In this document: in pieces, positions 9,562-46,032 of the stretch | Position numbering within the stretch: position 1 is the first letter of the stretch | Layout of the letters: every line of letters starts with the position of its first letter | Assembly: GCA_001600495.1 (NCBI GenBank) | Contig: BCKE01000010.1 | Coordinates: 390,517 to 454,516, forward strand | Direction of reading: 5' to 3' | Length of the DNA stretch: 64,000 nucleotides | DNA from: Pilasporangium apinafurcum | Taxonomy: Eukaryota; Oomycota; Peronosporomycetes; Pythiales; Pythiaceae | Program-made: the position numbers and the translations under genes | Notes under the pieces: model-generated | Seen by the model: only the letters and a program-made list of their open reading frames with translations | What the model was told of the DNA's origin: nothing | Databases searched by the model: none

Positions 9562-12111
9562 TCAGGACTGCTCGACGGTGATGGAGCACGGATGATCATC
9601 AAAAAAGTCGAACTCGTTGTTTATTGGTCCTTCCTCCATCAACAACGCCGTCGTCAGCACGTTTTCTTCAGCGATCGCCTTGAATTTACGACGAAACTTA
9701 CGACGCGATATCTTGACTTGTTCGAGTCGTTGCCCGAATTTACGACATGCACAGTTTCTACCAATGGGACTCGAATACTGATCATGGCGCTGAGTATAGT
9801 CAAACGGAGCAGTGGTGTTCGCCTTGTGCTCGGGGGAACTGCCTCGAGCGGTTACAGTGGTGCTTGCATCTGGTGAGCCATGTGTACTTGCTGAGGTGAT
9901 AGTGGACAACGACTGATCGCTATCCATACGTGGGATCACACTGCGGTGATCTAATACGCTGCTTGCACTGCCAGCAAACCGTTTGCAGAGCCGGATGTTG
10001 GGTTCATCGAAGAAGTAGATCGAATCATCATTTTCAAAGCCACGGGCGTGTTTGATATGATGAAGAAACCCAGCATCCATCCACGCATTTCCCATGCGAA
10101 TCCCTTCTGCAGGGCAGCCGACATAGGTCCGTTCTTCCATGCACTCGACGAGTTGTGTACCGACAACATTGCGCACGAACAATGGGCCAGATTTTTGCTG
10201 AGAGGGATCTGTTGGGAACTCGTCCAGTGCATCCATTATGAACGTCGCATTCACTTCTTCTTGTATAGCTTCTAGCACATTGACAATGGTCTGTGCCGAA
10301 GGACGCATGCGTGGATCTTGGTGCCATGCACTTTCAATGAGGTCACGTAGGTGAATGTTAAGCGATTGCTCAAGCTCTGGTCGCTTCCCGCCCATTACGT
10401 ATTCGAATGTTTGCAAGTGATTCCTTTTGGATTGCGGAAATTTTTCGGTGCATGGATGCAGAATATCCCACATCGTTATTGCGAACGAGTAAATGTCTGC
10501 TGCTTCGCCGTACGATGCCAATCCAGCTTTTGCGGTGATCAATTCAGGAGCCATGTAATCTACGGTGCCTTTGACAGTCATTTTCGTGTTGAAGCGAGAG
10601 CCTGTTGAAAATACTGGCTCAATTGGTGGTGGTACTCGAATTGGACGAACTACAGGATGCACCGAGCCATTGTGCAGAAATCCATCCTCAGCCACAGGAT
10701 CGATGGGATCTGCTTGGAAAACACTTCTGGATTCCCCGAAATCGGTCAACTTTACGTTGCACTCCTTATCGACAAGGAAATTGGAAGGTTTGATATCGCG
10801 ATGCAAAAATGGAGGCGAGAAACTGTGAATATATGCAACCGCTCGTGCTGCATCCAGCATATATGTGATGTTGATCAACAGCTGCTGACGGTTTGGATGA
10901 TATCGGCGGCGTGCATTGGCTCGCATAATATCGTCTAGATTTCCTTGACACAGTTCAGATACGAGGCAAATTGTTGGCGGGGAAACGCACATACCAAAGA
11001 AGTGCACGATGTTGGGGTGATGAAGTGCACCACACAGGGCAGCTTCCTGGGAAAAACTGGCGACAACGTCCTCATTGAAACTTGTAGGAGTGTACACCTT
11101 TACTGCCACGGGCATTCGTGAGTTCAATATACCATTAAACACTGTCGAGGTGGCTCCAACACCAATACGCTGCTTTAGCTCCAAGTGGGCGAAATCGATG
11201 ATATATTTACGATGCATTTCAATCAGGACATGTAGTCCCTGAGAAGAAATCCGTTCATGAATGTGATTCTTTTGTTGGTAAAGACCTTGGAGAGCAACTG
11301 CATTTTGACCCATNCCCCGCCAATACTCAGTGTCAGCTCTTAAGACCCGCCAAATGCCAAGTGGGCAAAGCGCAGCCCATAGCAACTTTGTGTATGTCAA
11401 ATAATAGCCGATATCGGGATTGCTGGCGAGGGTTAGATGCGTAGACACAATACTGAGTGCGTGGTAAATGAAGACAAAACAGCAAAATTCACGAATTGTT
11501 CGCTTGGATGCCCGTCCAGGAGGCCAAATAGAGACATATACGTAACCCGCTACAAGCACACAACGCGCCAGGGTCTCAAGTATCACGTGAGTCGTACGGT
11601 GTGTTGGATCGCCGTAAGTAACATGATACCAGACAAGCGGAATCGTATAAACCGACAACATTAAAGAGATAATGATTGTGCGTCGGAGTGCTGGAATGGA
11701 CACACTTTTCTGGTACATGAATACAATAACCAGCATAAACACAAACTGTCGTCCAGCGTAGAAGCTCTCGTACGTGATATCTGGTATCCCATCGTTGTAG
11801 AGATTTATTGTCAGCGCGATACACAAGAACAGCGTGTAGACACCACCAGTCACGCCTAAAATCCACAGTAAAGGCTCGAATGCTGGTAAAAGTATTTTTC
11901 TCCCAGCATTTGTGTCTCCTTTGAAGGCCTCAGATCGGTTGTATCGCATGTATGCAATCAATATCACGGACAGAATGAACATGGTCACGTAGGCGACGAG
12001 CATGAAAACCTGGGTGACATGAGCGAAGTTATGAAGGCGCTCGGCTTCGATCGTGGTTGAAGACATGTCTCCAGCGAGGAAAGACCCACTCGTGTTGTTG
12101 CTCGCGAGCAT
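9562..12111 (-). CDS. 7TM-TKL receptor-like kinase with DEP-like module, copy 1
   Basis: Intronless, 849 residues. Seven hydrophobic segments are predicted at about 32-55, 74-104, 119-137, 144-166, 176-197, 206-229 and 237-258. A linker (RADTEYWR) leads to a kinase domain at about 312-625. The kinase has a Gly-rich loop RIGVGATSTVF, Lys338 in VAVK, HRD at 437-439, DFG at 457-459 and APE at 521-523, so it looks catalytically competent. About 50 extra residues lie between DFG and the conserved MTVKGTVDYMAPE. Residues 650-712 match the second half of a DEP domain (IRMGNAWMDAGFLHHIKH, then a Phe-rich strand). The end has NCACRKFGQRLE, a basic patch and EENVLTTALL. It is closest to the gene at 13621-16128. 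It probably sits in a membrane with a cytoplasmic kinase. One ambiguous base (11314) falls in the linker. Confidence 0.9.
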   Translation of the reverse strand: MLASNNTSGSFLAGDMSSTTIEAERLHNFAHVTQVFMLVAYVTMFILSVILIAYMRYNRSEAFKGDTNAGRKILLPAFEPLLWILGVTGGVYTLFLCIALTINLYNDGIPDITYESFYAGRQFVFMLVIVFMYQKSVSIPALRRTIIISLMLSVYTIPLVWYHVTYGDPTHRTTHVILETLARCVLVAGYVYVSIWPPGRASKRTIREFCCFVFIYHALSIVSTHLTLASNPDIGYYLTYTKLLWAALCPLGIWRVLRADTEYWRXMGQNAVALQGLYQQKNHIHERISSQGLHVLIEMHRKYIIDFAHLELKQRIGVGATSTVFNGILNSRMPVAVKVYTPTSFNEDVVASFSQEAALCGALHHPNIVHFFGMCVSPPTICLVSELCQGNLDDIMRANARRRYHPNRQQLLINITYMLDAARAVAYIHSFSPPFLHRDIKPSNFLVDKECNVKLTDFGESRSVFQADPIDPVAEDGFLHNGSVHPVVRPIRVPPPIEPVFSTGSRFNTKMTVKGTVDYMAPELITAKAGLASYGEAADIYSFAITMWDILHPCTEKFPQSKRNHLQTFEYVMGGKRPELEQSLNIHLRDLIESAWHQDPRMRPSAQTIVNVLEAIQEEVNATFIMDALDEFPTDPSQQKSGPLFVRNVVGTQLVECMEERTYVGCPAEGIRMGNAWMDAGFLHHIKHARGFENDDSIYFFDEPNIRLCKRFAGSASSVLDHRSVIPRMDSDQSLSTITSASTHGSPDASTTVTARGSSPEHKANTTAPFDYTQRHDQYSSPIGRNCACRKFGQRLEQVKISRRKFRRKFKAIAEENVLTTALLMEEGPINNEFDFFDDHPCSITVEQS

Positions 12112-13620
12112 ATTAGATTGTTACGGAAATAAAAGCTGTGTTAGACTGAGACTCAGTCGGTTTGCTGGTCGATCATGTTATCATGGAAACAAACGGTTGG
12201 TCAAAAGAGGGAATATCACCATGCTCAACAAGATCGGCGAACGGCTGTTTAAATTTCACTGTTCTTCGAAAAACACGACTCTCTCCGATCGCTGGTTTAA
12301 CGTGTGCAACAATTACACGTAAGATCCTAATGTACAGAGAGAAGGTTCTTCATGCATGAACGTTCTGCAATTTTGGTGACGCTAATACTTTTCTTCGTTC
12401 GTATTCCACGGAGGAAAATCATGGAAGAAACACATTTTGGGCGGCACTTCGTCAATCTATCTGGATGACAGTCGCAATGCATAGAGCAATTGTTCCAAGT
12501 ATGAACTGGGTCTATGGTGTACGTGAATGCGTAGCTATCAGAAAACAACGCGTGTAAAGGGACACTCAAGAGCCCTCAAATTGCGAGTTCACTCTACCAT
12601 CGAAATATGAAACACGTGCTGGGCTCGTTTCCAGTAATTACACGGAAATCGCAACTGTGATTGCCCAGCCACTTCGCTCGATCAAAGCTGCGTTCATCAA
12701 ACGTTTTGATAGTCAGATATAACCAGATTCCGTTGAATAGTGAACTGATTTTTCCGTATAGTTGACGTGCATGAGTTGCTTCACATGATCATGCAAATGC
12801 CCGAATTATTTCACTCTGCTTTGGAATGGGGAATAGTGAGATTTGTCTGCGTTATGGATCGCATCTACTGGTGCTATAAATGCGCTTACTGCTTCTTGTG
12901 TAGCGTTGCGTGTTAGTTCCCACCGGATCTTGTCTCACGTGCGTACATGTTGGCAACCAAATGGGTAGAGAATGAGCCTCATTAAACGACCTGGTAGTTG
13001 TAGATATCTACACTTTATGGTTGATGATTGTCTTTCCGGTGAAAACGACTCGGGCTTATGAAGCGGATCCCAGTAAGAAAAACTAAACCTCGGTGAAAGC
13101 AAAGATCGGCAAGGCTCAGAAGATTTTAGCTGTTTAGACTTTTCTAACAGTCTCCATGTCTTTGTTCCCAAGAAATCGCGTGGGTATCACGTCCCGGTTG
13201 GATGAACTACTAGAGGCGCAACGCTTTTACATGCAATTGGTGTATTGAAAGAAAATTAAAAAGCAGAGAGCATAAGTTCTTACTTGGTACATTAGAACAA
13301 AAGCATGAATGCCACGAGTTTTTTCTATATATTCGTTGCAGATATCGGATAAACATTCATAGAAGCAATCAGGATCTTCTACGAAGAAACATGAATAAAG
13401 CGAGCAAAATTCCGCAAAAAGCACGATCTTTCGAAGAATCTACGACTCTAAGTGGCTCATCTCAACTGACTACTAGCCGGCGCAGGATGTTGAAGTGATC
13501 TTGTCACTATTGTGGAATTGAAGCGATGCCAGTACAAAGAGGAATATCTTTGGAGCAATGTGTTGATGTTACCCATATATGAGCTGCTAATCGTGTTGTG
13601 TAGCGTACAAATTCTACGCT
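12112..13620. other. Intergenic region between two tandem kinase genes
   Basis: 1.5 kb holding the promoter of the gene ending at 9562 and the 3' region of the gene starting at 16128. A 65-codon minus-strand frame (13424-13227), rich in Cys, Phe and Tyr, is open but matches no family I know. No clear kinase fragment or transposon is seen. Confidence 0.4.
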
Positions 13621-16128
13621 TTACGTGCGCATGATGACTATTGAGCAAGCACGTTCGTCAATCGCATCAAACTCTTGCTGCAGCGGTGTATCTTCTTCTG
13701 TGAGCAGTGCTGCTGTAAGTACATTTTCCTCTGCGATAGGTTTGAATTTGCGACGAAATTTGTCTCGACGTGTCAACTTATATTGCTCCACACGCTGCCC
13801 GAACTTGCGACAGGAGCATGTGGCAGCTGGTGCTCCATCCGTCGTGCGAGTACTGCGATTGGAGTACCGCTCAGTCACATCATGTGGATTCAGTTCAGAA
13901 CTCGCAGAGATGGACGAATACGCTCGAACAGCATCAGATGCAATACTGCCGCCACCATCAGCGAATGGCTGTGAGAGACGGATGTTTACTTCATCGAAAA
14001 AGAAAAGGGAATCATTATCTTCAAAGCCTCTGCCGTGCTTAACATGATGCAACAAACCCGAGTCCATCCAGGCGTTACCCATACGAATTCCCTCAGCTGA
14101 CGAGTTGACGTAGTGCAATATCTGCATTCTTTCAACCAAATGAGCGCCAGTCACGTAGCCTCGCGCCATAGAATTTGACGTCGAAGACAATGGCACAGTA
14201 ACATTGGGAGCAGGTGATTCTTCTTGCTGAGGGTGTAAGGTATCCAGAACGTCTAAGAGAAAAGTAGCGCTGACTTCTTCTTGAATCGCTTCTAGGATGT
14301 CTACAATACAGTGTGCAGTTGGTCGCCGAAGAGGATCCTGTTGCCACGCGCATTCGATCAGATGGCGAAGTCCTGTGTGCAAGAAAGGATTCAATTCTGG
14401 TCGGTTCCCGTCCATGACATATGCAAACGTTTGTAGGTGATTACGCTGGGTTTGTGGAAACTTTTCAACTCCAGGATTCAAAATATCCCACATCGTGATT
14501 GCCAGCGAGTAAACATCTGCTGCTTCACCATAAGATGCCAGGCCAGCCTTGCCTTCGATCAACTCAGGCGCCATATAGTCCACGGTACCCTTCACAGTCA
14601 TTTGTACATCCCTCATGCGCGGACTCAACAATTCTAGTGGCGGAATGAGTGGTTGCGTTCGATCATGGGACAAAGTTGAAGATGTTCTCCTCCGCCTGCT
14701 TTGTGAAAAAAAACCACTGCCCTTATTGTTCACGCTCTCTACCGTGTCCGGCTGGAAAACGCTTCGTGACTCCCCAAAGTCGGTCAATTTCACGTTGCAA
14801 TCGGTATCAACGAGGAAGTTCGATGGTTTGATGTCGCGATGAAGGAATGGAGGTGAGAAGCTGTGAATATAGGCGACAGCGCGCGCAGCATCAAGCATAT
14901 ACGCGATATTGATCAGTAATTGCTGTCTGTCTGGATGCCGGGAACGCCGCGCATTGGCTTGTATGATGTCATTGAGATTTCCTTGACAGAGCTCAGAAAC
15001 TAAGCAGATTGTTGGTGGCGACACACACATACCAAAAAATCGGACAATGTTTGGATGATGGAGCGCACCACAAAGTGCGGCTTCTTGGGAAAAACTAGCC
15101 ACCACTTCCTCATTAAACGTTGTAGGGGTGTAGACTTTGATAGCGACGGGGATTCTAGAGTATAAGATGCCGTGGAATACCGTCGAGGTCGCACCCACGC
15201 CAATACGTTGCTTCAGCTCCAGGTGTGCAAAGTCGATTATATACTTGCGGTGCATCTCGATCAGTACGTGCAAGCCCTGCGACGAAATCCGCTCATGCAT
15301 GTGGTGTTTTTGCCGATAGATCCCTTGCAACGCCACGGCATTCTTGCCCATACCGCGCCAGTACTCCGTATCAGCCTTCAGCACTCTCCAAATCACAAGC
15401 GGACACAGTGATGCCCACAATCGTTGTGCATGCGCCAAGTAATATCCGCTGTCTGGGTTTTTAGCCAGCACAAGGCATGTCGATAAGATATGTTGTATAT
15501 AATAGATTAACACAAACCCACAAAACTCGCGAATCGTTCGATTCGTTGCCCTTCCCGGGGGGAACACAAAGACATAGACGTAAAAGAGTATCAACAGACA
15601 GCGCACGAGTGTTTGGATGGTCACCTGCCGCGTGCGATGCGCCGGATTACCGAATTCGTGATGATACCAGACAACTGGGAGCGTGTAACATGCCAAAAGC
15701 AGTGAGATGACGACAGTGCGACGTAGCGCTGGGATGGAGACGCTCTTCTGATACATAAACACGATCACAAGCACAAACAAGAATTGCCGCCCAGCATAAA
15801 GAAACTCGTTCGGTAAGTCAGGGATATCCTTTTTGTACAGATCCATCCCAAGCGCAAAGCAGAGAAATAATGTAAGCGTGCCGGAGGCGGCCCCCAAGAT
15901 CCAGAGCAACGGTTCAAAAGCAGGAAGTAGTAGTTTCCGACCGGCGTTGGTGTCGCCTTTGAAGGCTTCATTGCGGTTGTAGCGCAAGTACAAAATTAGC
16001 AGCATGCAGAGTACGAACATGGTCACGTACGCGACCAGCATGATAATTTGCGTGACATGTGCAAAGTCATGGTCGTCTTGCCCGTCATTATCGACAAGAA
16101 AACGAGGAACGGCCATCGTGCTAGCCAT
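13621..16128 (-). CDS. 7TM-TKL receptor-like kinase with DEP-like module, copy 2
   Basis: Intronless, 835 residues from the ATG at 16128; the frame is open four codons further but only to a TTG. The layout is as in its tandem neighbour: seven hydrophobic segments between about residues 24 and 250, a KADTEYWRGMG linker, then a kinase from about 305. Lys331, HRD 430-432, DFG 450-452 and APE 520-522 are all present. The activation-segment insert has a basic, Ser-rich patch (QSRRRRTSSTLSHDR) that could be a phosphorylation or docking site. The DEP-like half (IRMGNAWMDSGLLHHVKH) and the CSCRKFGQRVEQYKLTRR tail with EENVLTAALL follow. Similarity to the copy at 9562-12111 runs through loops and linker, so these two are a recent tandem pair transcribed in the same direction. 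Confidence 0.9.
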   Translation of the reverse strand: MASTMAVPRFLVDNDGQDDHDFAHVTQIIMLVAYVTMFVLCMLLILYLRYNRNEAFKGDTNAGRKLLLPAFEPLLWILGAASGTLTLFLCFALGMDLYKKDIPDLPNEFLYAGRQFLFVLVIVFMYQKSVSIPALRRTVVISLLLACYTLPVVWYHHEFGNPAHRTRQVTIQTLVRCLLILFYVYVFVFPPGRATNRTIREFCGFVLIYYIQHILSTCLVLAKNPDSGYYLAHAQRLWASLCPLVIWRVLKADTEYWRGMGKNAVALQGIYRQKHHMHERISSQGLHVLIEMHRKYIIDFAHLELKQRIGVGATSTVFHGILYSRIPVAIKVYTPTTFNEEVVASFSQEAALCGALHHPNIVRFFGMCVSPPTICLVSELCQGNLNDIIQANARRSRHPDRQQLLINIAYMLDAARAVAYIHSFSPPFLHRDIKPSNFLVDTDCNVKLTDFGESRSVFQPDTVESVNNKGSGFFSQSRRRRTSSTLSHDRTQPLIPPLELLSPRMRDVQMTVKGTVDYMAPELIEGKAGLASYGEAADVYSLAITMWDILNPGVEKFPQTQRNHLQTFAYVMDGNRPELNPFLHTGLRHLIECAWQQDPLRRPTAHCIVDILEAIQEEVSATFLLDVLDTLHPQQEESPAPNVTVPLSSTSNSMARGYVTGAHLVERMQILHYVNSSAEGIRMGNAWMDSGLLHHVKHGRGFEDNDSLFFFDEVNIRLSQPFADGGGSIASDAVRAYSSISASSELNPHDVTERYSNRSTRTTDGAPAATCSCRKFGQRVEQYKLTRRDKFRRKFKPIAEENVLTAALLTEEDTPLQQEFDAIDERACSIVIMRT

Positions 16129-16989
16129 TGACGATGACAATTACTCGATAACAGATGACGAGAATGCGTAGTATTCAAGTACTTTGTGGATTTGGCAGTC
16201 GACTAAAATGCGAAGGCGATATGCTCGTACAAACTCAAGGTATATGGAAGAAGAGACATCATCGAAGATTTAAAGCTGTCAAGATAGAAGAGGAAACGTA
16301 CATGTTATGGCCGTTTCTGTACCGTTGAATTTGGTGATCCCGTTTGTCTCGTTTCTTCTGCAAAATGCGAACTTTCAGCGAAAACCCGGAAAGAGCGATG
16401 GAGTTGCAGGACTAGCAGTTTGTGTAATGAAGCAAGACGTTGCGAAAAAGGAAGGCGGTTAGTCTCCTGTGAGAACTATGACTCTCAATACATCAGAATA
16501 TTGAAGTTGCTATTTTGGGATTATACAACGCGTACAGATCCACAAATTGCGAAAAACTAACTGTTTTCAAGTGCATCCACTGACTAGTAATTGGGCTACC
16601 ACACATAGAAGAGGAGAATGATTGGGAACCCGACATCTAATGATCCTTGAACAGTAAGAGATAGTAGATATCAACGTAATTCATTCCCGCAAAGGAGCTA
16701 CTCTGATGTAAAAGAGATGTTATGGATTTTGTAATGGTGCACGCATTGTATAAGTGCTAAAAGTGATTTAAGTAGGATTTTGATAGACATTTGCGTGTGC
16801 TGTGCCTCAGTTCAATCTTGCAAACGAACTTTCGTCGACACTTTCTGTGAGTAGCCCATACTTGCCAAAAGTTGCATGCCTTCGGAGACCATTGCTTTGT
16901 TTTTGAGCTCGAAAGTGACAAGTTTCATCTATAAGTATGCCGATCTATAGTGATCACGCATTTCAGTTGAAAGACAATATCTGTATGAA
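16129..16989. other. Intergenic, upstream of kinase copy 2
   Basis: Contains the promoter of the minus-strand kinase gene and AT-leaning spacer sequence. I see no coding potential, repeat or RNA gene. Confidence 0.4.
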
Positions 16990-20884: not shown

Positions 20885-21155
20885 GGCAGCTTGGCGAAAA
20901 TTTGTGGCAGAAAGTGAAAAAGCTGAGCTGTTTCGTTGTGTTTTCATCTACCAATCTCCCCTTCCCCCCTTCAATACAGTAGCAAAATAAAATCAATTCC
21001 GGAAATGTTTTTCGCATTTGTGAAAAACGAGCGATTGATTTTTTTGTAATACAATAAATAATGCGCATATCTTCTTTGTTCTTCTTGATATTGTTGGGAT
21101 GGTGATTGTTGCGCAGCGTAGATCTAGACGTGACTGGTCTAATAGTGACGGCCAC

Positions 21156-23054: not shown

Positions 23055-25628
23055 ATGCTTCGAGCTATGAAAACTGATGGTGGACTCAGTTTTGAAGGTG
23101 TGATGGATTTTAGAACAAAATCAATGATCCCGAACGAAGAAAATTACATCACTGTGCATCAGGGTCCATCTCGCGTGTTTTACAGCCAGTTGTTATCGAT
23201 GGTGGGATACTTGCTTTTGTGTCTGGTTTGCCTCGGTCTAATTGTGTACTTGCGCTTCAATCGCCGAGCCGCTCATCGGGGAGACGAAAAAGCAACGCAA
23301 AAGCTCATTTTGCCCGCATTTGAGCCACTCTTGTGGACTCTTGTTATTGCAACTGCATGCTATGTCGCGTTCTTCTCGGCGTCAATTGCGTTTACGTTCT
23401 TCAAAAACTCGATTCCGAAGCTTGTCAATGAGGCTTTTTATTCCGGTCGCCAATTCGTCTTTATGCTTGTGATCATTCTCATGCTCCAGAAAAGCGTGTC
23501 CATCCAGGCGATTAGACGAACTGTGCTCATTTCGCTTGTACTGTCAACATATAACATGCTGACATTGTACCTCTTATTAACCTGCATCCCTGTCAGCAAG
23601 GAAGTTAGATTTTGGTTGCAGGAAGCTTTCCGATTGTGTTTGACGATGCTGTTCATCTATGTGTTGGTCAAACCTCCGAATCGTGCTAGCAAGGGATCAT
23701 TGCAAGCATATTGTAGTTTTGTATTGGTGTACGACGCTATCAGTTTGATCTCCGACTTCATGACCTATTTTGATTTCATCAGAACCAACGCCGTACTAGC
23801 TTACTTTATTCGCTTCTGGTGCACGTTTTGCCCGTTGTTGATTTGGCAAGTGCTCAAGGCTGACACTGCACACTGGCGTGGCATGGGACAGCGTGCATGC
23901 TCATTGCTGAACATCTTTCGAGATGCTCATCCAATGGACGATCGAATATCATCGCGCGGAATACATGTACTGATCGAGATGCATCGCAAATTTATCATCG
24001 ATTTTGCGCACATGGATCTCAAGAAGAAAATCGGTATCGGCTCGAATGCCATCGTCTTCAATGGATTGTTGCATTCAAAGATACCAGTTGCAGTCAAAGT
24101 ATATACACCTCGGTACTTTACGGAAGAGACAGTTGCTGAATTCTCGCATGAAGCAGCTTTATGTGCGACACTCTGCCATCCAAACGTTGTCGTGTTCTAT
24201 GGAATGTGCATTTCACCACCAACAATCTGTTTAGTGTCGGAACTCTGCCAGGGAAGCCTTGAAGATATCACACGTATTACGGCCCAACGAGAGAGACCAT
24301 CACAACGACAGCAAGTACTTATCAATATTGCCTATATGCTCGATGCCGCGCGGGCTGTGGCTTATATGCACAGTTTTACGCCACCATTTCTTCATCGTGA
24401 TGTGAAACCAGCCAATTTCTTGGTAGATATCGAACATAATGTTAAGCTCTCTGATTTCGGCGAATCCAGGAGTCTTCCTCGAGACAAGTCATCGGAGTTT
24501 GATGGTGATCAGTTTGGTGGATCGAAGCTGTTTGATGATTCCTTCAGTCGTACCGCAAGTTATGATCAACCACCAGCTGTAAAAATGACTGTTACTGGCA
24601 CCGTCGACTACATGGCTCCAGAAATGATTAGTCGAACTGGATTGGCGTCCTATGGCGAAGCAGTGGATGTGTACTCACTTGCAATCACATTTTGGGACAT
24701 CGCACATCCTGGGCAGGAGCGATACCCAGATCTTAACAACAACCACTTTCTCGTGTTTGACAACGTTCGGAATGGATATCGTCCCGTCCTAAGTAACGAT
24801 ATTCATCCCAAGCTGCGCGATCTTATCGAAAGTGGATGGCAAACTGATGCAGCATTGCGTCCATCGGCGAGGCAGATCGTCTTTATCTTGGAAGGCATTC
24901 AGGAAGAAATCATGGCTTCCTTTGCGCTGGAAATGAGTGATGATATGCACAACAGTGGCCAGAAACTTCGCAGTGAGGTAGCCTCAACCGAAAAATGCTT
25001 TACTGGAGAATACGCAGTAGCTCGAATGGAAGAGTTGCAGTATGTTGAGTCTATTGGAGAGGGAATCAGGTTGGGGAATGCGTTAATGGACGCAGGGTTT
25101 TTACATCACCTGAACCACTCGCAGTCATTTGAGAGCACCGATTCGATGTACTACTTTGATGATGAAAATATCCAATACAGCCAACCACTCGCGATTCTGC
25201 AAGAAAGAGATGAAGAAGAAGATGATGAGAATAGCACTGACAAATCTGATGATCTGAGATTTAGAGCTGCCACATCCCCGCACACTACGGACACCTCATC
25301 AGGAGGCAAAACGTCACCGTCATTCTTCCAGCATATACGATCTGGTTTAACACCAACCAACATGTCATTTCGCACCTCCCAGTCCTTCTATACTTCCCAA
25401 GATTTATCTCGTCTTGCTAATAATTCCGTATGTCCCTGTAAACGGCTCGGTCAGCGCCTAAAAGTATCTGGTCGATATTCTCGACGGCATCGTCATCAGC
25501 ATCGTCGTATGCGTTCGGGAAGATTGAAGTCTTCGTCCATCGATGAGAATGAGAACACACTATTGCGTTCTCTACTGAATGAGGATGGAGAACAACAATG
25601 TTTGGAGTCCTTAGCCATTGTCGCGTAA
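23055..25628 (+). CDS. 7TM-TKL receptor-like kinase with DEP-like module, copy 3
   Basis: Intronless, 857 residues, start MLRAMKTDGG. It is the most divergent of the six copies. Seven hydrophobic segments lie between about 45 and 267. The conserved loops are present in variant form (TQKLILPAFEPLLW, FYSGRQFVFMLVIILML, KADTAHWRGMGQ). Kinase: RIGIGS-type loop (KKIGIGSNAIVF), Lys348, HRD 447-449, DFG 467-469, APE 521-523. The DFG-to-APE insert is acidic and Ser-rich. The DEP-like half reads IRLGNALMDAGFLHHLNH. An acidic run (DEEEDDEN) precedes the tail CPCKRLGQRLKV, a His/Arg-rich patch and ENTLLRSLLNEDGE. A degenerate copy of this tail lies about 400 bases downstream. The gene is convergent with WRNIP1. 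Confidence 0.9.
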   Translation: MLRAMKTDGGLSFEGVMDFRTKSMIPNEENYITVHQGPSRVFYSQLLSMVGYLLLCLVCLGLIVYLRFNRRAAHRGDEKATQKLILPAFEPLLWTLVIATACYVAFFSASIAFTFFKNSIPKLVNEAFYSGRQFVFMLVIILMLQKSVSIQAIRRTVLISLVLSTYNMLTLYLLLTCIPVSKEVRFWLQEAFRLCLTMLFIYVLVKPPNRASKGSLQAYCSFVLVYDAISLISDFMTYFDFIRTNAVLAYFIRFWCTFCPLLIWQVLKADTAHWRGMGQRACSLLNIFRDAHPMDDRISSRGIHVLIEMHRKFIIDFAHMDLKKKIGIGSNAIVFNGLLHSKIPVAVKVYTPRYFTEETVAEFSHEAALCATLCHPNVVVFYGMCISPPTICLVSELCQGSLEDITRITAQRERPSQRQQVLINIAYMLDAARAVAYMHSFTPPFLHRDVKPANFLVDIEHNVKLSDFGESRSLPRDKSSEFDGDQFGGSKLFDDSFSRTASYDQPPAVKMTVTGTVDYMAPEMISRTGLASYGEAVDVYSLAITFWDIAHPGQERYPDLNNNHFLVFDNVRNGYRPVLSNDIHPKLRDLIESGWQTDAALRPSARQIVFILEGIQEEIMASFALEMSDDMHNSGQKLRSEVASTEKCFTGEYAVARMEELQYVESIGEGIRLGNALMDAGFLHHLNHSQSFESTDSMYYFDDENIQYSQPLAILQERDEEEDDENSTDKSDDLRFRAATSPHTTDTSSGGKTSPSFFQHIRSGLTPTNMSFRTSQSFYTSQDLSRLANNSVCPCKRLGQRLKVSGRYSRRHRHQHRRMRSGRLKSSSIDENENTLLRSLLNEDGEQQCLESLAIVA

Positions 25629-29880: not shown

Positions 29881-32466
29881 TCACAATAGTGTCGCAGGTA
29901 CACTTCGGGATGGCGTATCGGTGAAATCATCCCATACACTGCTGTTAAACGCCCCCATGTGTTCATCCTGCTGGAGCAGGTTAGCAGTCAGTATGTTCAC
30001 TTCTGAAGTGACTTTGTGCTTGCGACGGAAACGTTGCTTCAGTGTTTTCCGACCTTCGAGTCTCTGTCCTAGTTTCTGACATGCACAGCCTTTGACTGTA
30101 CTGTCAATCGTATGACTACCAACGATTTCGCTCATGGCACCGTCACTCCCGAGATGTGACCGAGAGCTGGAATTAGCACGTGCATTACTCTCACTTTTGC
30201 TCTGTTTGGAACCATACCCATGCCAATCGGGAGAGATAGGCGGAGGCGAAGGCGGCTGGCAGTCCCCGGGTTCCAACATGGCAAACGGGTGGCACAGACG
30301 AATATTGTCATCATCAAAGAAATACTGAGAGTCATTGGTATTTTCAAAGCACTGTACGTGCTTGACATGATGCAGGAAACCAGCATCCATCAACATGTTC
30401 CCCAATCGAACACCCTCGCGAGTTGAGCCGATTGCTTCCAATTCCTCCATTTTCTTAATCACACACGCACCAGAGAACGTTTTGGAGGATATTTGTCCAT
30501 TTCTGGACTTGCTTGAAACGATATGATCATTCTCGAGCTCCTCCGAGAGATCCATGGCAAAATTAGAGCAGATTTCTTCCTGAATATTCTCAAGCGTTTG
30601 CACAATGTGCTGAGCAGAGGGTCGCTGACGAGGATCCATGCTCCAGGCGTCTCGAAGCAGTTCACGCAGCGACGGGTGCAGATTGTCGTCAATTATCGGT
30701 CGATCGCCCGCCAAGACCGATTCAAAAATCCGCAGGTGATTGTTGTCAGAGTTGGGATACTTTTCCGTTCCTGGATTTAGGATATCCCACATTGTGATAG
30801 CGAGTGAGTAGATATCTGCAGCTTCGCCGTATAATGCTACACCACCTTTGCCATTGATAATCTCGGGTGCCATATAGTCCGCCGTACCTTTGACAGTCAT
30901 TTGCAATCGCTTCTTGTTGGTTAATGATGGCATCGATGGTTGAGGATGAAAAACTAAGTCTTGGTTGCAGAGTTCGTGGTAATGCTCGTTACTTCCGTAT
31001 GTTTTATCCATTTCCATGTTGCCATTCTCCGTAGTGGTTCCATTTTGCCATGTAATGTTTGCCCTAGGTAGACTACGCGACTCGCCAAAGTCTGTTAGCT
31101 TCGCTGTACCGTCTACATCGACGAGAAAGTTACCCGGTTTGATATCCCGATGCACGAAGGCTGGTGAGAAGCTATGGATATAGGCAATTGCACGCGCTGC
31201 ATCGAGCATATAACCCAAGTTAATGAGAAATTGCTGACGACTGGGTTGCCGTCTATTGGCCACAACAGTGATAACCATGTCAAGACTGCCATAGCAAAGC
31301 TCCGATACCAAGCAAATGGTAGGAGGGGAGACACACATGCCATAGAATTTAACAATGTTTGGATGATTCAAAGCCCCACAGAGCGCCGCTTCATGGGAGA
31401 ACTCAGCCACGGTCTCCTCTGTCACAACTGTCGGAGTGTATACCTTGACAGCGACTGGTGTCTTGAAATGAAGCACACCATTGTACACGACGGCAGTGGC
31501 GCCGATACCAATGCGCTGCCTAAGCTCCAAATAGGCAAAGTCAATGATGAACTTCCGATGCATCTCAATCAGCAAGTGGAGACCCTCTGACGAGGTATGC
31601 TCGTTTACATTAGTTTTCTGACGAAAAAGACTCTGCAGCGCACACGCGCGTTGTCCCATGCCACGCCAGTGCTCAGTGTCCGCTTTCAGCACGCGCCAGA
31701 TGAAGAGTGGGCAAAGTGAACCCCAAATCAACATAGCATAGATGAGCGCGAAGCCCAATTTGATATGATGGTAATAGAAACTTGTCGCGTAGCTGAACTC
31801 GAAGGCGTGATCCACCAGCGCAAAAGCACAGTACTTACGTAACGACCGCTTGTTTGCTCGTCCTGGTGGACGAATCGCAATATAGACGTATAGCATCACC
31901 AAGCATCCATGTGCGACTTGCAGCAGTGCATAGCTGATGCTTGATGATCTACTCTGGTACGTTGCGATATACCAGCCCACAATGATCGAATACGTCGATA
32001 ACGCCAATGTAATCGCAACAGTGCGCTTGAGTGCAGGGATCGAGACGCTTGGTTGCAGCATAAACACAATAACGAGCAGCATCACGAATTGCCGCCCGGC
32101 GTAGAAACACTCGGTACGGAACGGATCAGCCGAGTCTACGTAGAGATTTTGAAGCAGAGATACGATGAGATAGAGAGTGAAGGCACCAGTTGCGAAGCAC
32201 AGAATCCACAATAACGGCTCAAATGATGGTAAGAGGATCTTGCGCACCGCGTCCGAGTCTCCTTTACGCGCGATGGTTCGATGATGGCGCATATAATACA
32301 ACAGCAGCCCAGAAAAGAGAAACATAATTCCATAGGAGACCAGTAACACCACTGTCAGCACCAGTAACTGGTCGTTTACATATTCCCGTAGCGATACATA
32401 CGCTGGAGACGCAGTAACGGAGGCATTAGAGTTTGTCGCATTCTGCGTTGATAGCGCGCGAAGCAT
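29881..32466 (-). CDS. 7TM-TKL receptor-like kinase with DEP-like module, copy 4
   Basis: Intronless, 861 residues from the ATG at 32466 (MLRALSTQNATNSN, matching the MLRA start of the 23055 gene). The frame stays open to 32724 with earlier ATGs, but that extension has no counterpart in the other copies. An Asn/Ser/Thr-rich N terminus with possible glycosylation sites precedes seven hydrophobic segments (about 34-260). Conserved loops: RKILLPSFEPLLW, CFYAGRQFVMLLVIVFML and KADTEHWRGMGQ. Kinase: Lys341, HRD 439-441, DFG 459-461, APE 523-525, with an insert of about 50 residues before MTVKGTADYMAPE. The DEP-like half (VRLGNMLMDAGFLHHVKH) and tail (CACQKLGQRLEGRKTLKQ, then ILTANLLQQDE) follow. 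It groups with the copies at 39351 and 43462. Confidence 0.9.
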   Translation of the reverse strand: MLRALSTQNATNSNASVTASPAYVSLREYVNDQLLVLTVVLLVSYGIMFLFSGLLLYYMRHHRTIARKGDSDAVRKILLPSFEPLLWILCFATGAFTLYLIVSLLQNLYVDSADPFRTECFYAGRQFVMLLVIVFMLQPSVSIPALKRTVAITLALSTYSIIVGWYIATYQSRSSSISYALLQVAHGCLVMLYVYIAIRPPGRANKRSLRKYCAFALVDHAFEFSYATSFYYHHIKLGFALIYAMLIWGSLCPLFIWRVLKADTEHWRGMGQRACALQSLFRQKTNVNEHTSSEGLHLLIEMHRKFIIDFAYLELRQRIGIGATAVVYNGVLHFKTPVAVKVYTPTVVTEETVAEFSHEAALCGALNHPNIVKFYGMCVSPPTICLVSELCYGSLDMVITVVANRRQPSRQQFLINLGYMLDAARAIAYIHSFSPAFVHRDIKPGNFLVDVDGTAKLTDFGESRSLPRANITWQNGTTTENGNMEMDKTYGSNEHYHELCNQDLVFHPQPSMPSLTNKKRLQMTVKGTADYMAPEIINGKGGVALYGEAADIYSLAITMWDILNPGTEKYPNSDNNHLRIFESVLAGDRPIIDDNLHPSLRELLRDAWSMDPRQRPSAQHIVQTLENIQEEICSNFAMDLSEELENDHIVSSKSRNGQISSKTFSGACVIKKMEELEAIGSTREGVRLGNMLMDAGFLHHVKHVQCFENTNDSQYFFDDDNIRLCHPFAMLEPGDCQPPSPPPISPDWHGYGSKQSKSESNARANSSSRSHLGSDGAMSEIVGSHTIDSTVKGCACQKLGQRLEGRKTLKQRFRRKHKVTSEVNILTANLLQQDEHMGAFNSSVWDDFTDTPSRSVPATLL

Positions 32467-33774
32467 TCGACTAGTGGAGTTTTCAGTAGTGTGTTCTAGT
32501 GTGGGCGTTTCAATGTAGAAAATGATCATAAAAATGACAACGAGTGGTGGGTCTTGAGGGGAAAACGAGTTGTGTGAGATCATGCGACAGCAAACAAGCA
32601 AGAGCGATGATGCATCTTTTTCACGCCCACTAAGGTAATCAGTGCACAACAATTTGAAAACAAAAGGTCCAGTCCCCATTGAATTATAGCAATCCACGGA
32701 TTTTTTTTGCCGCGATGTGTTCAATGAACATGAGCTTCCTTTTAAAATGTGGAAGGAAACGAACCAGTAGATTCAGCGCCAGATCATGTGCGGCTTTTCA
32801 TGATTCGCTGATACCCGTGTTTCATTGGATAAAAAACATAATAACAATTTTCTATTGGATAATAATCGATATGGTTTCTTGTGTGGTAATTTTTCTAACA
32901 TTCATTTTTCGAACATTGTGCAGCCAACTTCTGAATGGACACCACTGAGCAGATACTTCTTGAAATGTTTGAAAACGTGTGACATTATTAGGAACGTGAA
33001 CAAGGAGAGCTATGGGGATAATGATTTCCCTTATTGGCTGACGTAGGTTGTCTGCAACGAACATCATTCGAGCCGACTCTGATTTTCGTTTGCATGCTTT
33101 CGTGTGTGGTTATAATGTAAGACACTGTTTCATATCTTTAATTGTATACATAATAACTCGCTGTGAAAAGTTATAGTGTAATCGTTTGTATGGTTGGCTG
33201 GTTCAAGCTCAATACTCGAAAAATGGGCATCTTTCTAGGTAAGTTTATCAAATCCAATAATTCAGTTTCTACATTTCTTCCAAAAGAGTAAGTCTGTTTT
33301 GATTCTTGTCTTTATTTTGTTTGTAGTTGACGACATCCATCGTCAATCATGAACCCGCTTCCTCGCATGCGCACAAAGGGTAAGATGGTAAAGGGTTTAA
33401 TCTCTTCTATATATGAGCAAAGGGATCTTCGTTTAGCTGTGACGCTGTATTAGCTTCCTTTTTCGTAGTAACTGTTTAGTTGCTCACATTTATCGAAAAT
33501 ACTCCCTTTTCCAAACACCATCGAGATTACATTTTCTGTGTCAGGTTCTTATGGAGGCTGGTGTCGAAATGCTGGATGTAGTTCTCTACATTTTCACATC
33601 AAAATATAATTTCATGGATGCTGCATGAAATTCTTTTCTATTGCTGCACCGGTAAATCGGTACGGACCTGCTTTATCGGTAAATACCGGTATTATGTATC
33701 AGATTTCTTAGAGGACACAGCCAAAAAGGAAGACAATCGACATCGATTCCGATCCTTCTCTCTCCCATTTCCAC
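32467..33774. other. Intergenic region between divergent kinase and FIG4 genes
   Basis: Shared upstream region of two divergent genes. A spliced-looking unit occurs at 33190-33350: an ATG-led 49-base exon, an intron-like GTAAGT..TTTGTAG segment (33239-33326) and a short continuation that stops after eight more codons. It may be a leader exon or a tiny upstream frame. No domain is recognised. Confidence 0.35.
33648..33693. promoter_or_regulatory. Repeated CGGTAAAT element with 12-base palindrome
   Basis: CGGTAAAT occurs twice (33650 and 33677), and the second copy runs into the perfect palindrome AATACCGGTATT (33682-33693), about 80 bases upstream of the FIG4-like start. The symmetry suggests a dimeric protein binding site. 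This is inference from sequence alone. Confidence 0.3.
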
Positions 33775-39350: not shown

Positions 39351-42032
39351 ATGCAGACATTGGATGTAGCTACCTATGAGGCGGACCACGTCGCTCGATG
39401 GCTCGCCCCATGGAACCAAAGCGATCAAGCAGTAATCATCAACAGCGTGACAGTCGAGTATCTGACCAATCAGGTCTCGATTCTTTCCAAGGTCATGCTG
39501 CTAAGTTACGCCGCCATGTGTGTGCTGTCGGGGTTGCTTATCATCTACATACGTTACCATCGCACTGAAGCGCTCAAAGGAGACACAGAAGCAGCGAGGA
39601 AGATCCTTCTGCCGTCGTTCGAGCCACTGCTCTGGATTCTATGCATCGGAACAGGCGCATACTCTATGTACTTCATCTATGCGTGGATCAACAACGTCTT
39701 CTTGACACGAATTGCCTCACTGCCCACCGAGTGTTTTTATGCTGGTAGACAATTCGTGCAGCTCCTGGTGATCATATTCATGCTGCAGAAAAGCGTCTCA
39801 ATCCCATCACTCGTGCGTGCTACGACCATTACGTTCTTCTTGTCGTCTTACTCAGTCCCAGTCGTCTGGTACACCTCCACACACGATGAAATAGGCAACG
39901 CCAAAACGTACTACTGGCTACTCACGACCATCCACGGCCTTGTGTTCTTAGTGTACGCCTACATACTGATTCGTCCGCCTGGACGCGCGAGTAAGCGGAC
40001 ACTGCGTGAATACTGTGCGTTCGCATTTATCTACAACAGCTTTGAGGTTGCTTATCCCGCGGCATTCCACGAAAACAAAGTCAAACTGGGGTTTGACCTT
40101 ATTTACCCGTTGCTCATTTGGGGATCATTTGCACCATTTTTTATCTGGCGCGTGCTCAAGGCTGACACGGAACACTGGCGCGGGATGGGGCAGCGCGCTT
40201 GTGCACTACAGTGCCTCTTTCGCCAGAGAACTAACGTCAACGAGCGAATCTCATCTGAAGGGTTGCATTTATTGATTGAGATGCATCGGAAATTCATCAT
40301 TGACTTTGCGTACTTGAAATTGAACGAGCGAATCGGAATTGGTTCTAGCGCAGTCGTATACAAAGGCATACTCCATTCAAAAACCCAAGTCGCCATTAAA
40401 GTGTACACACCTACAAGCGTCACGGAAGATACAGTCGCGGCGTTTTCCCATGAAGCAGCGCTCTGTGGCGCATTGCATCACCCAAATATCGTGAAATTCT
40501 ATGGCATGTGTGTCTGTCCGCCCACGATTTGTCTTGTCTCGGAATTTTGTCACGCAAGTCTCGATACTGTGATCGATGTAGTCGCGCACCGTCCTCATCA
40601 GCCAAGCCGAGAGCAACTACTGATCAATATCGGATACATGATTGATGCAGCGAGGGCGGTAGCGTATTTGCATAGCTTCACGCCAGCATTTGTGCATAGG
40701 GATATCAAACCGGGGAATTTCCTGGTGGATTTCGACGGCAACGTGAAATTGACCGATTTTGGGGAATCGCGCGCGCTACCCAAAGCCAATATTGAATGGG
40801 AGAAAGCGACTTCAACCACCACTAGTCAAACAAATACTTCAAATAACAACACCGAAAAGCATACGCCTGGTAGTAATCACAGTGTGGATGATAGCTACAC
40901 GGAGCTCAACCACCACGAAATTAATTTTGCGCCTGATGTTTTCGACAGTCACAGCTCGTTGGCCACATTCAGTAGCAACAGTCACAATCACCATCGTCAC
41001 CATACTGTGAAAATGACCGTGACCGGCACAGTGGACTACATGGCACCGGAGATGATCCAGGGCAAAGCCGGTATGGCGTCTTACGGTGAAGCGGCTGATA
41101 TCTACTCACTAGCAATCACAATGTGGGACATTCTCCACCCTGGAAGCGAGAAATACCCAGAATCTCACAACAACCACCTGCGTGTCTTTGAATCAGTCAT
41201 GGCAGGTGATAGACCTGATCTCGATCCAGAATTACATCCAGCATTGCGTGAGATCATTACACGCGCTTGGCACGTCGATGCTCGAATTCGACCAACCGCA
41301 GAGATGATCGTGCACACACTTGAGTCCATCCAAGCTGAATTATGTGCTTCTTTTGCGTTGCACCTCGTAAAGGACCTTGACCATGAAATGATGCTACATA
41401 AGAGTGGTGGTAACCACATGGCATCTATTGTCAAGAGCTTTACAGGCAAACAGGCCGTGTACCGAATGCAGGCACGTGAAGCTGTAGCCTCTAGTGACGA
41501 AGCCGTGCGGCTGGGTAATATGCTGATGGACGCAAGGTTCATGCACCACCTCAAGCACACGCAATCGTTCGAGCGGAGCGATGATATACTGTACTTCTTC
41601 GATATTGAGCGCATTAACCTCTTGCAGCCGTTTGCCATCCCAAGCTCGGCAGAGTCATCGATGGTAGAGCCTATAGAAGGTGCTACTGGTTCCACCACGG
41701 TCCCAGCAGGAGCTAACGCTGATATGTTGACTTCAATGATGTGGAACCAGTACCGACTACGACCCAGGCATAGCAGTGACAGTACAGTGACTGCGACGAG
41801 TGGTAGCAGTCATAACGACATAAGCAGTCTGCTAGACCCAGCGCCGATTATGGGGTGCGCTTGTCAACGACTCGGTCAGCGGCTGGATGACCGCAAGCCT
41901 TCACGTCGAAAACTACAATACAAGCAGAAGACAATTCCAGAGGAAAACATATTGACGATCAACTTGTTGCAGGAGGAAGACGATAATTCTGTGGACAGAC
42001 TGGATATCCGTTATGATAGCGGTGGACACTGA
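39351..42032 (+). CDS. 7TM-TKL receptor-like kinase with DEP-like module, copy 5
   Basis: Intronless, 893 residues, the longest copy. Seven hydrophobic segments lie between about 43 and 268, with RKILLPSFEPLLWILC, CFYAGRQFVQLLVIIFML and KADTEHWRGMGQ. Kinase: RIGIGSSAVVY loop, Lys350, HRD 449-451, DFG 469-471, APE 555-557. The DFG-to-APE interval is the longest of the family, with about 70 extra residues rich in Thr/Asn and ending in a His cluster (SHNHHRHH). The DEP-like half is VRLGNMLMDARFMHHLKH with a Phe strand. The tail has CACQRLGQRLDDRKPSRR and EENILTINLLQEEDD. It stands in the same orientation as the 43462 gene, with which it forms a tandem pair. Membrane location with a cytoplasmic kinase is inferred. 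Confidence 0.9.
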   Translation: MQTLDVATYEADHVARWLAPWNQSDQAVIINSVTVEYLTNQVSILSKVMLLSYAAMCVLSGLLIIYIRYHRTEALKGDTEAARKILLPSFEPLLWILCIGTGAYSMYFIYAWINNVFLTRIASLPTECFYAGRQFVQLLVIIFMLQKSVSIPSLVRATTITFFLSSYSVPVVWYTSTHDEIGNAKTYYWLLTTIHGLVFLVYAYILIRPPGRASKRTLREYCAFAFIYNSFEVAYPAAFHENKVKLGFDLIYPLLIWGSFAPFFIWRVLKADTEHWRGMGQRACALQCLFRQRTNVNERISSEGLHLLIEMHRKFIIDFAYLKLNERIGIGSSAVVYKGILHSKTQVAIKVYTPTSVTEDTVAAFSHEAALCGALHHPNIVKFYGMCVCPPTICLVSEFCHASLDTVIDVVAHRPHQPSREQLLINIGYMIDAARAVAYLHSFTPAFVHRDIKPGNFLVDFDGNVKLTDFGESRALPKANIEWEKATSTTTSQTNTSNNNTEKHTPGSNHSVDDSYTELNHHEINFAPDVFDSHSSLATFSSNSHNHHRHHTVKMTVTGTVDYMAPEMIQGKAGMASYGEAADIYSLAITMWDILHPGSEKYPESHNNHLRVFESVMAGDRPDLDPELHPALREIITRAWHVDARIRPTAEMIVHTLESIQAELCASFALHLVKDLDHEMMLHKSGGNHMASIVKSFTGKQAVYRMQAREAVASSDEAVRLGNMLMDARFMHHLKHTQSFERSDDILYFFDIERINLLQPFAIPSSAESSMVEPIEGATGSTTVPAGANADMLTSMMWNQYRLRPRHSSDSTVTATSGSSHNDISSLLDPAPIMGCACQRLGQRLDDRKPSRRKLQYKQKTIPEENILTINLLQEEDDNSVDRLDIRYDSGGH

Positions 42033-43461: not shown

Positions 43462-46032
43462 ATGGCTGATACTCAAAGCTCCATGCAAAACCTGACGGAA
43501 GATCAGCTAGCAGCCATGAAGGCACTTCAGGACTACTCAAATTTGCACTTGATCGTGCTTAATGTGATGATGATGGTGAGCTATGCCATCATGTGGGTCT
43601 TATCGTCTGTGCTCCTTGGTTACATGCGGCACAATCGTGCAGTTGCACGAAGGGGAGACGTCGAAGCCGCAAGGAAGATCTTGCTTCCTTCATTCGAGCC
43701 GTTGTTGTGGATTATGTGTTGCGCCACAGCGGGTTTTACGATCTTTTGTATGTTCGCGCTGATTTTCCATCACTATGCAGATAATGTATTGTCCATCGAC
43801 ATATTTTACGCCGGTCGGCAATTCGTGCAGCTGCTCGTTGTGATATTCATGCTACAACATAGCGTCTCCATCCCGGCATTGAAACGCACAATCGCGGTCA
43901 CATTATTGCTCTCGTGTTACTCAGTCCCAGTTGCCTGGTACATCTCGCTGCATACAAACAGTAACAGCTCCAGCTACAACACGACCGACTACTGGTCGAT
44001 GATGGCCACTCACGGATTACTAGTATTGGTGTACGTATACGTCGCAGTTCGTCCACCTAGCCGTGCGACGAAGCAAACATTGCGTGAGTACTGCGGATTT
44101 GCATTCATCTACAATGCGCTGGAGTTTGCCTATGCGACCGCATTTACGCACAACCATATCAAGTGGGGCTTTGCGCTCATCTATATGATGCTTATTTGGG
44201 GGTCATTATGTCCGTTCTTCATCTGGCGCATCTTAAAAGCCGATACCGAGCACTGGCGAGGCATGGGTCAGCGTGCATGCGCACTTCAGCATTTGCTCCG
44301 CCAAAAAACGAACGTAAATGAGCATATCTCGTCTGAAGGGCTTCACGTGCTCATTGAGATGCATCGCAAGTACATTATTGATTTCGCGTATTTGGAACTA
44401 AAGCAACGCATTGGTGTTGGCTCCAGTGCTAAGGTCTACGAAGGAGTGCTCCATTCTAAGACACCTGTGGCTGTGAAAGTCTACACACCGACAAGTGTGA
44501 CGGAAGATACTGTCGCCGAATTTTCTCATGAAGCAGCGCTTTGTGGTGCATTAAATCATCCGAACATTGTCAAATTTTTTGGCATGTGTGTGTCTCCACC
44601 TACGATTTGTCTTGTCTCGGAACTTTGTTATGCCAGTTTAGATGTCGTGATTACTGCAGCTGCTACAAAACACCAGCCTAGCCGACAGCAATTCCTGGTC
44701 AACTTGGGCTACATGCTTGATGCAGCCCGTGCTGTAGCCTATATCCATAGCTTCTCACCAGCATTTGTGCATCGTGATATCAAACCAGCAAATTTTCTGG
44801 TTGATATGGAGGGAACAGTCAAGTTAACTGACTTTGGTGAATCACGGACGCTCCCGAAGGTTCGTATTGAATGGGGAATGGCACCACACGACTACACTAG
44901 TACCACAAAGAAAGAGGATGTGTATGACAATGCTGAGCACTACCTCGAACTCTCCAGCCATGGGACCGTGGTATCTACGCCTCCATCCCAACAACCAACC
45001 AACAAAAAACACCTTGAAATGACCGTCAAGGGTACAGCAGACTACATGGCTCCAGAGATAATCAATGGAAAAGCCGGACTGGCTTCATATGGTGAGGCTG
45101 CTGATGTTTACTCGCTTGCCATCACAATGTGGGATATCTTGAATCCAGGCGTGGAAAAGTACCCAAACTCCAATAGCAACCGCTTCCAAATATTTGAATC
45201 GGTTTTGGCAGGCGATCGTCCAACGATCAACGGGTCTTTGAATTCATCTCTTTGCGAACTGCTTTGCAGTGCCTGGCATATAAATCCTCGCCAACGCCCG
45301 ACCGCTCAAACCATCGTCACAGCGCTCGAAAGAATTCAAGAGGAAGCTGGAGCAGAATTTGCTAAAGAGCTATCCCAGGAACTAGCCAATGACCTTGTGT
45401 CCCATTCAGGTTCAAAAACTACTCCTAAAAGCTTCTCAGGAGAACGAGCTGTCAGGAAGATGGAGCAACTCAAAGCAGTTGACTTCAAACGAGAGGCGAT
45501 TCGTTTAGGTAATATGCTCATGGACGCAGGATTTCTGCATCACGTTAAGCATGCACAGTGCTTTACTTGTAGTGGCACTGCGATGTTTTTGTTTGACGAA
45601 GACAAAATTCGATTGTGTCAACCGTTTGCAATGTTAGAAGGCGCACCTTCACCTTTCAATACCACGCCTGAATGGAATAGTCACGAGAATTTAGGATCCA
45701 GCAAGCGAGAAAGGCAGCAGCGCGACATCTCGGAGGTGCAACCGAATAAAAAAAGTGGTGCAGCGACTGTAGAGATTAGCACCAGCAATAGCAGCAATTA
45801 TGAAAATTACAATAGCGAGAGCGGATGTGCGTGTCAGCGACTTGGGCGGCGATTGGAAACCCGGAAAACGGCAAAGCGCCGATTTCGACGCAAGTACAAG
45901 GCTATCCCAGAAGAAAACGTGTTGACGGTCAATCTCCTGCAGCAGGATGACCAGTCCACGACACCGAATCGAAATTCGTGGGACGATACTCCTGAGTTGT
46001 CATCTCCGATTGTGATCACCACATTATTTTAA
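43462..46032 (+). CDS. 7TM-TKL receptor-like kinase with DEP-like module, copy 6
   Basis: Intronless, 856 residues from the ATG at 43462 (MADTQSSMQN); the frame extends 15 codons further only to a TTG. Seven hydrophobic segments lie between about 28 and 258, with RKILLPSFEPLLW, IFYAGRQFVQLLVVIFML and KADTEHWRGMGQ. Kinase: RIGVGSSAKVY, Lys339, HRD 437-439, DFG 457-459, APE 530-532. The insert before MTVKGTADYMAPE is about 50 residues. The DEP-like half (IRLGNMLMDAGFLHHVKH) has the usual Phe-rich strand. The tail has CACQRLGRRLETRKTAKR and EENVLTVNLLQQDD. It is closest to the copies at 29881 and 39351. It is convergent with the LRR-like gene, whose stop is 220 bases away. Confidence 0.9.
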   Translation: MADTQSSMQNLTEDQLAAMKALQDYSNLHLIVLNVMMMVSYAIMWVLSSVLLGYMRHNRAVARRGDVEAARKILLPSFEPLLWIMCCATAGFTIFCMFALIFHHYADNVLSIDIFYAGRQFVQLLVVIFMLQHSVSIPALKRTIAVTLLLSCYSVPVAWYISLHTNSNSSSYNTTDYWSMMATHGLLVLVYVYVAVRPPSRATKQTLREYCGFAFIYNALEFAYATAFTHNHIKWGFALIYMMLIWGSLCPFFIWRILKADTEHWRGMGQRACALQHLLRQKTNVNEHISSEGLHVLIEMHRKYIIDFAYLELKQRIGVGSSAKVYEGVLHSKTPVAVKVYTPTSVTEDTVAEFSHEAALCGALNHPNIVKFFGMCVSPPTICLVSELCYASLDVVITAAATKHQPSRQQFLVNLGYMLDAARAVAYIHSFSPAFVHRDIKPANFLVDMEGTVKLTDFGESRTLPKVRIEWGMAPHDYTSTTKKEDVYDNAEHYLELSSHGTVVSTPPSQQPTNKKHLEMTVKGTADYMAPEIINGKAGLASYGEAADVYSLAITMWDILNPGVEKYPNSNSNRFQIFESVLAGDRPTINGSLNSSLCELLCSAWHINPRQRPTAQTIVTALERIQEEAGAEFAKELSQELANDLVSHSGSKTTPKSFSGERAVRKMEQLKAVDFKREAIRLGNMLMDAGFLHHVKHAQCFTCSGTAMFLFDEDKIRLCQPFAMLEGAPSPFNTTPEWNSHENLGSSKRERQQRDISEVQPNKKSGAATVEISTSNSSNYENYNSESGCACQRLGRRLETRKTAKRRFRRKYKAIPEENVLTVNLLQQDDQSTTPNRNSWDDTPELSSPIVITTLF

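Follow-up and report, generated by a model that had tools for sequence, protein, structure and literature searches.

A cluster of predicted seven-helix receptor kinases that carry DEP and share a basic tail in the oomycete Pilasporangium apinafurcum

Oomycete receptor kinases that join a GPCR-type membrane part to a TKL kinase (GPCR-TKLs) have been described in Phytophthora infestans. According to the accessible text of van den Hoogen et al. (2018, PMC5784254), whose inventory of oomycete GPCRs was selected on the presence of 5–9 TM helices, P. infestans has 17 GPCR-TKLs, 8 of them with one DEP domain C-terminal to the kinase. The P. infestans kinome of 2010 (Judelson and Ah-Fong, PMC3019232) includes, in its accessible part, a membrane-spanning kinase whose DEP domain is intracellular, and names TKL as the commonest type among clustered kinase genes; the GPCR signature is not mentioned there, according to the accessible text of PMC5784254. 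Models of direct activation that skip intermediates, including G proteins, have already been proposed (PMC6033456, accessible text). In choanoflagellates, GPCR-TKL/K proteins are regarded by their authors, from clustering of the 7TM domains, as probably convergent (PMC12716839, accessible text).

We analysed a 64,000-nucleotide stretch of P. apinafurcum DNA, hereafter the window (C10:390517–454516; the genome comprises 136 contigs totalling 36.47 Mb). The elicitin family, which is not known outside oomycetes and thus marks the genome as oomycete, gave 50 matches in this genome and 0 in 14 control genomes; the latter seem prokaryotic, so the absence there says nothing on other eukaryotes. An earlier note on this DNA had proposed six genes, each encoding membrane segments, a TKL kinase, a DEP-like domain and a tail in one chain. 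Indeed, we found six uninterrupted open reading frames at 9562–46032, each running from start to stop (835–932 aa), with Pfam matches to a kinase and to DEP in 6/6. The order was the same in all six: seven hydrophobic segments, a TKL kinase with intact motifs, DEP and a conserved basic tail, with no stop codon separating the membrane and kinase parts.

Three of the genes lie on the reverse strand: K1 (9562..12111, 849 aa; DEP 9970–10179, tail 9637–9753), K2 (13621..16128, 835 aa; DEP 13963–14175, tail 13699–13818) and K4 (29881..32466, 861 aa; DEP 30271–30483, tail 29968–30090). The longest frame of K4 is 29881–32679 (−), but the alignment suggests that the start at 32466 is likelier than that at 32679. 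On the forward strand are K3, the most divergent copy (23055..25628, 857 aa; DEP 24987–25199, tail ~25431–25586 with an internal insert of 11 residues), K6 (39351..42032, 893 aa; DEP 41427–41639, tail 41853–41975), which has the longest activation segment of the family, and K7 (43462..46032, 856 aa), which we used as the reference copy. Single unread bases (N) occur at window positions 11314, 63578 and 63736; the first sits in a K1 codon where the other seven copies of the family agree on one residue. The remaining window frames that were scanned look ordinary (GTF3C1-like, hydrolase, EGF-like, MgsA_C AAA+, SAC phosphatase and CDC20-like), apart from two that matched no Pfam family. Rfam models at gathering scores and a tRNA scan found nothing across the whole window, and a scan for core-promoter motifs upstream of the six cluster genes was uninformative.

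A search of the genome with K7 revealed eight full-length members: the six in the window, one on contig C24 and one on contig C40. Both outlying copies are intact reading frames, each with kinase and DEP; an in-frame TAA counted inside the C24 match is the frame's own stop, as the frame ends at L012:1510 and the match extends 9 bases beyond. The K7 7TM domain as the query returned the same eight copies and one chance-like match (E 0.12). The K7 tail as a protein query (up to E 10) gave 7 matches, all family members, and missed K3 with its tail insert, so divergent tails elsewhere could also escape such a search. Searching for the tail by DNA pattern was too loose and was abandoned, as it produced 57 matches (all eight copies included) against 54 in the reversed control. 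No relatives were found among viral contigs, and a further collection of genome contigs gave two weak matches, to the kinase part only.

We then considered the membrane domain, which in K7 spans residues 29–262 (43546..44247, +). About seven membrane segments had been claimed for each gene. The mean hydropathy profile of the eight aligned copies (residues 1–299 scanned) shows seven maxima, all within residues 35–254 (K7 numbering), a number within the 5–9 N-terminal TM helices by which the inventory of PMC5784254, in its accessible text, was selected. Mean Lys/Arg content was 5.4, 1.9, 4.2 and 6.2 in the would-be inside stretches versus 1.1, 1.9, 1.2 and 1.1 outside; the second inside loop comprises three residues only. 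This positive-inside pattern predicts an N-out/C-in topology. A single-sequence hydropathy scan with a cut-off of 1.4, however, recovered only 5 to 7 of them per window copy, and the same cut-off also picked one kinase window in 4/6 of them. TM6 or TM7 is weak in six of the eight copies, scoring 0.73–1.03 in K7, K1, K2, K4, K6 and the C40 copy versus 1.25–1.74 for the best cytosolic windows. The count of seven, thus, rests on the alignment and the charge pattern, and not on each copy taken singly.

Neither Pfam nor a PDB profile search matched any of the eight 7TM domains to a GPCR family, so the label 'GPCR' rests on topology. Transporters and channels fared no better, with no Pfam match below E 0.2 among the eight domains, and the PDB profile search returned only claudin-3 (0.25) and an acetylcholine receptor subunit (0.47). 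Comparison with the 7TM part of the GPCR-PIPK proteins of the same genome gave an hhalign probability of 0.3 per cent, which is a weak test, the PIPK profile being built from seven divergent pieces just 13–26% identical to the first. Among these PIPK proteins, L047 (GPCR-PIPK-like) differs from the family in that its membrane part is recognised by two Pfam models, 7tm_2 (E 3.5e-5) and Dicty_CAR (E 0.0012), and L052 has below-cut-off matches to NMN_transporter (E 0.0004) and Frizzled (0.003). L043 and L049, which are PIPK proteins or pieces, matched no 7TM family in Pfam.

The kinase domain (residues 311–628 in K7; 44392..45345, +) was matched by Pfam in 8/8 members, with the better of PF07714 and PF00069 at E 3.6e-38 or lower in all six window copies, while PIP5K was matched in none of the eight. 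The closest PDB kinases were plant CTR1 and TAK1 (E 4e-38 to 1e-30), with MAP3K9, Roco4 and the tyrosine kinase FAK1 (~1e-26) coming next, among the best 60 of 92 matches. CTR1 and TAK1 are grouped with the TKL kinases; on the whole the kinase appears to be of the TKL type, judging by its nearest PDB relatives. The VAVK/VAIK, HRDxKPxN (the Ser/Thr form), DFG and APE motifs are intact in 8/8 copies.

The activation segment sets the family apart from the other kinases of the genome that were examined. From DFG to APE it measures 56–99 aa in all eight members, versus 26–28 in 15 of 17 distinct control segments, the other two measuring 34 and 42, so that each member carries an insert of 30–70 residues, longer than is found in any of the 17. 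The control came from the genome search with K7, which gave 62 matches; 30 of these were assigned to loci, eight belonging to family members and 22 lying elsewhere, and the 32 matches without a locus were left out. All 22 other loci were scanned: L018, L021 and L023 yielded no segment by pattern and L019 yielded two, and identical segments were counted once (L022, L024 and L028 repeat others). The sequence of the insert is variable (mean pairwise identity 0.16; pN/pS 0.81); in K7 the variable part covers residues 463–518 (44848..45015, +).

Two further kinase arrangements were noted elsewhere in the genome. On the cluster's own contig, C10:156646–158346 holds a single 764-aa frame with two kinase domains and hydrophobic segments before the first. 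In L066 (C78:13200–15200), the frame 174–1904 (+) joins an elicitin domain (E 2e-16) to a kinase (E 9e-50), with a sub-cut-off receptor-type TM match between them; in L065 (C19:219400–221300), the frame 33–1901 (−), open at its 5′ end, joins elicitin (E 1e-20) to a kinase (E 2e-52). Each looks like a receptor kinase whose ectodomain is an elicitin, a domain that does not appear in the accessory-domain table in the accessible part of PMC3019232.

A DEP domain follows the kinase (K7 residues 657–722; 45430..45627, +). The PF00610 search found it in 6/6 window copies (E 8e-8 to 6.5e-3), all under the whole-protein cut-off of 32.7 bits, and as a single domain in 8/8 members (E 2.9e-9 to 6.5e-3), where only the C24 copy exceeds that cut-off. 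When the genome was scanned with the DEP model, four of the six window copies were listed, two of them above cut-off, and K1 and K2 were absent. A chance match is ruled out by a profile of the eight DEP regions, for which a PDB search with an E limit of 1 returned 17 sequences. These include P-Rex1 (5e-13 over two DEP stretches; best single 1e-6), P-Rex2, DEPTOR (7e-5), whose entry title names the DEP domain, Epac-type RapGEFs, pleckstrins and Iml1; the others are DEP proteins as well. The domain had been described initially as a half DEP, which does not hold: the matches cover model positions 10–72 in K3 and K6, 13–72 in K4, 11–63 in K7, 20–72 in K1 and 19–70 in K2, so that the domain, at about 65 residues, is nearly whole. 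In the C40 copy, where DEP is below cut-off, Pfam matches only model positions 36–72. Neither of two results that the earlier note had named as refuting its proposal, a helix count below seven and a lack of DEP in every copy, was obtained.

The tail (K7 residues 788–828; 45823..45945, +) has the pattern C-x-C, G-x-R, a basic stretch and then N-x-L-x-x-x-LL in all eight copies, and both cysteines of the CxC are invariant in 8/8. Its first 30 residues carry a net charge of +7 to +11. It is a constrained element, with a pN/pS of 0.41 versus 0.86 and 0.78 on the flanking sides. The cysteine pair beside basic residues resembles an acylated membrane anchor, which suggests a putative lipid modification.

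Conservation differed strongly between the two faces of the membrane domain. Mean column identity was 0.67 in the cytoplasmic loops (17/43 positions invariant) and 0.76 in the junction between TM7 and the kinase (28/56), which is more conserved than either loops or helices, versus 0.31 on the outer face (4/50; residues 1–28 left out). The inner-versus-outer loop difference was matched in 0 of 20,000 permutations, a result to be taken as a guide, since alignment columns are not independent. The variable outer face together with conserved loops and junction is the pattern of receptors that differ in what they sense but signal alike through the kinase they carry. The pN/pS ratio was lowest in the junction (0.18), followed by the two kinase halves (0.22 and 0.29), DEP (0.34), the tail (0.41) and the 7TM domain (0.46), and reached 0.66–0.86 in the N-terminus, linkers, insert and C-end; since pS is saturated, these values only rank the regions.

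The proteins are probably receptor kinases of the GPCR-TKL DEP subtype in which diversified sensors feed one shared, membrane-tethered kinase output. Different outside ligands would act on the diversified outer face, and the signal would travel by way of the conserved inner loops and the TM7–kinase junction directly into the fused kinase. Its long activation segment may act as a flexible regulatory or autophosphorylation gate, and DEP with the CxC-plus-basic tail, perhaps lipid-modified and membrane-binding, may keep the kinase close to the membrane or to a partner receptor. The eight copies would in this way read different cues into one common output.

A poorly conserved outer face and the short N-terminus before TM1 could also be expected if the 7TM part were mainly a membrane anchor and not a ligand sensor, the kinase being constitutively active or only a scaffold. 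However, the 17 invariant loop positions, together with 16/133 invariant TM positions, seem excessive for an anchor, and each of the eight copies accommodates seven hydrophobic segments at matching positions, although six have one weak helix. We regard an anchor role as highly improbable.

The receptors might instead couple as GPCRs to G-alpha, the fused kinase being a built-in GRK, as proposed in the accessible texts of PMC5784254 and PMC6033456, that mainly phosphorylates its own or partner receptors (desensitisation) and is recruited to receptors by DEP. In the same texts P. infestans is reported to have a single GRK and to lack PKC, which would suit this reading, as would the binding of receptor loops and tails by the DEP domain of some RGS proteins (PMC5784254). 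A G-alpha gene is also present in the genome (one match over cut-off on C47, in a frame with one TAG, and a further piece adjoining), so the receptor kinases could couple to a G protein. Yet the 7TM part is without a GPCR family match in either Pfam or the PDB, and inspection by eye of the eight aligned copies found neither DRY nor NPxxY, both GPCR motifs. The junction is conserved above loops and helices, as direct coupling predicts, though this is compatible with a built-in GRK too. We consider G-alpha coupling with a built-in GRK unlikely.

A relative in the same genome bears on the origin of the architecture. L017 (= L053; C7:387598–389187) has seven hydrophobic segments, a TKL-like kinase and the LxADTxxW junction motif common to the family; it is without DEP (Pfam), tail or insert, and its activation segment has 28 residues. 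Against four of the eight copies its alignment spans the 7TM part from residue 16–17 with 30–34% identity, against two it begins at about residue 70, and against the other two only from the junction. The 7TM domains of L017 and the family matched in hhalign at E 0.0012. A common origin of the 7TM domains is likely, although short of certain, given an hhalign probability of just 19 and the failure of the K7 7TM query to retrieve L017. Since all three are missing from L017, DEP, tail and insert look like a single package, either gained with the subfamily or lost in L017.

In a bolder proposal, the 7TM domain would not be a GPCR but would belong to a separate family of oomycete sensors, each directly gating the kinase fused to it, with insert, DEP and tail working together as a built-in membrane-docking switch that a single ancestor gained and all eight copies have retained. 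We consider this proposal doubtful. Should direct gating be true, the receptors would be one-molecule alternatives to the chain from receptor through G protein to kinase. The insert, the CxC-plus-basic tail and the inner–outer contrast offer concrete sites for probing signal transfer from membrane to kinase.

The earlier note had also described a local expansion. Six copies are indeed clustered, but the expansion is not recent (pS ~0.8), and the C24 and C40 copies lie outside. Protein identity between copies is 42–66%, and mean pS is 0.755–0.887 in all 11 regions (28 pairs). The copies face both directions and are interspersed with genes for EGF-like, MgsA_C AAA+ and SAC-phosphatase proteins, and C40 groups with K1 and K2 (support 1.000 for this clade, but only 0.468 for the branching inside it). 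Saturated pS, the two orientations, the unrelated intervening genes and the nesting of C40 with K1 and K2 rule out a recent tandem expansion; by its sequence divergence, the cluster is old.

Judged by domain content, the receptor kinases are of the published oomycete GPCR-TKL type, DEP subtype, and so belong to a known family. The supposition that their parts had not been described together fails for 7TM, TKL and DEP, which the accessible text of PMC5784254 reports in a like order, with membrane helices at the N-terminus, then a TKL kinase and behind it a single DEP; the numbers also agree, with eight DEP-type genes in P. infestans and eight here. Of the shared tail we found no description. 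The activation-segment insert and the CxC-plus-basic tail of the present family are without mention in that accessible text. More widely, no description of the insert, the tail or the inner–outer contrast was found in the open-licence texts consulted, taken without supplementary tables, which is weak evidence of absence. With the P. infestans transmembrane TKLs the family shares an intracellular DEP and the clustering of TKL genes, while the accessible part of PMC3019232 describes no six-gene cluster of the DEP subtype. The choanoflagellate GPCR-TKL/K proteins are likewise 7TM domains fused to a kinase, theirs being TKL or other (PMC12716839, accessible text). Oomycete GPCR-PIPKs, too, combine membrane helices with a C-terminal kinase, which is a lipid kinase there and a protein kinase here. 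To the published type the present family adds a count of eight genes, six of them clustered, a near-complete DEP domain, the activation-segment insert, the tail and the contrast in conservation between inside and outside.
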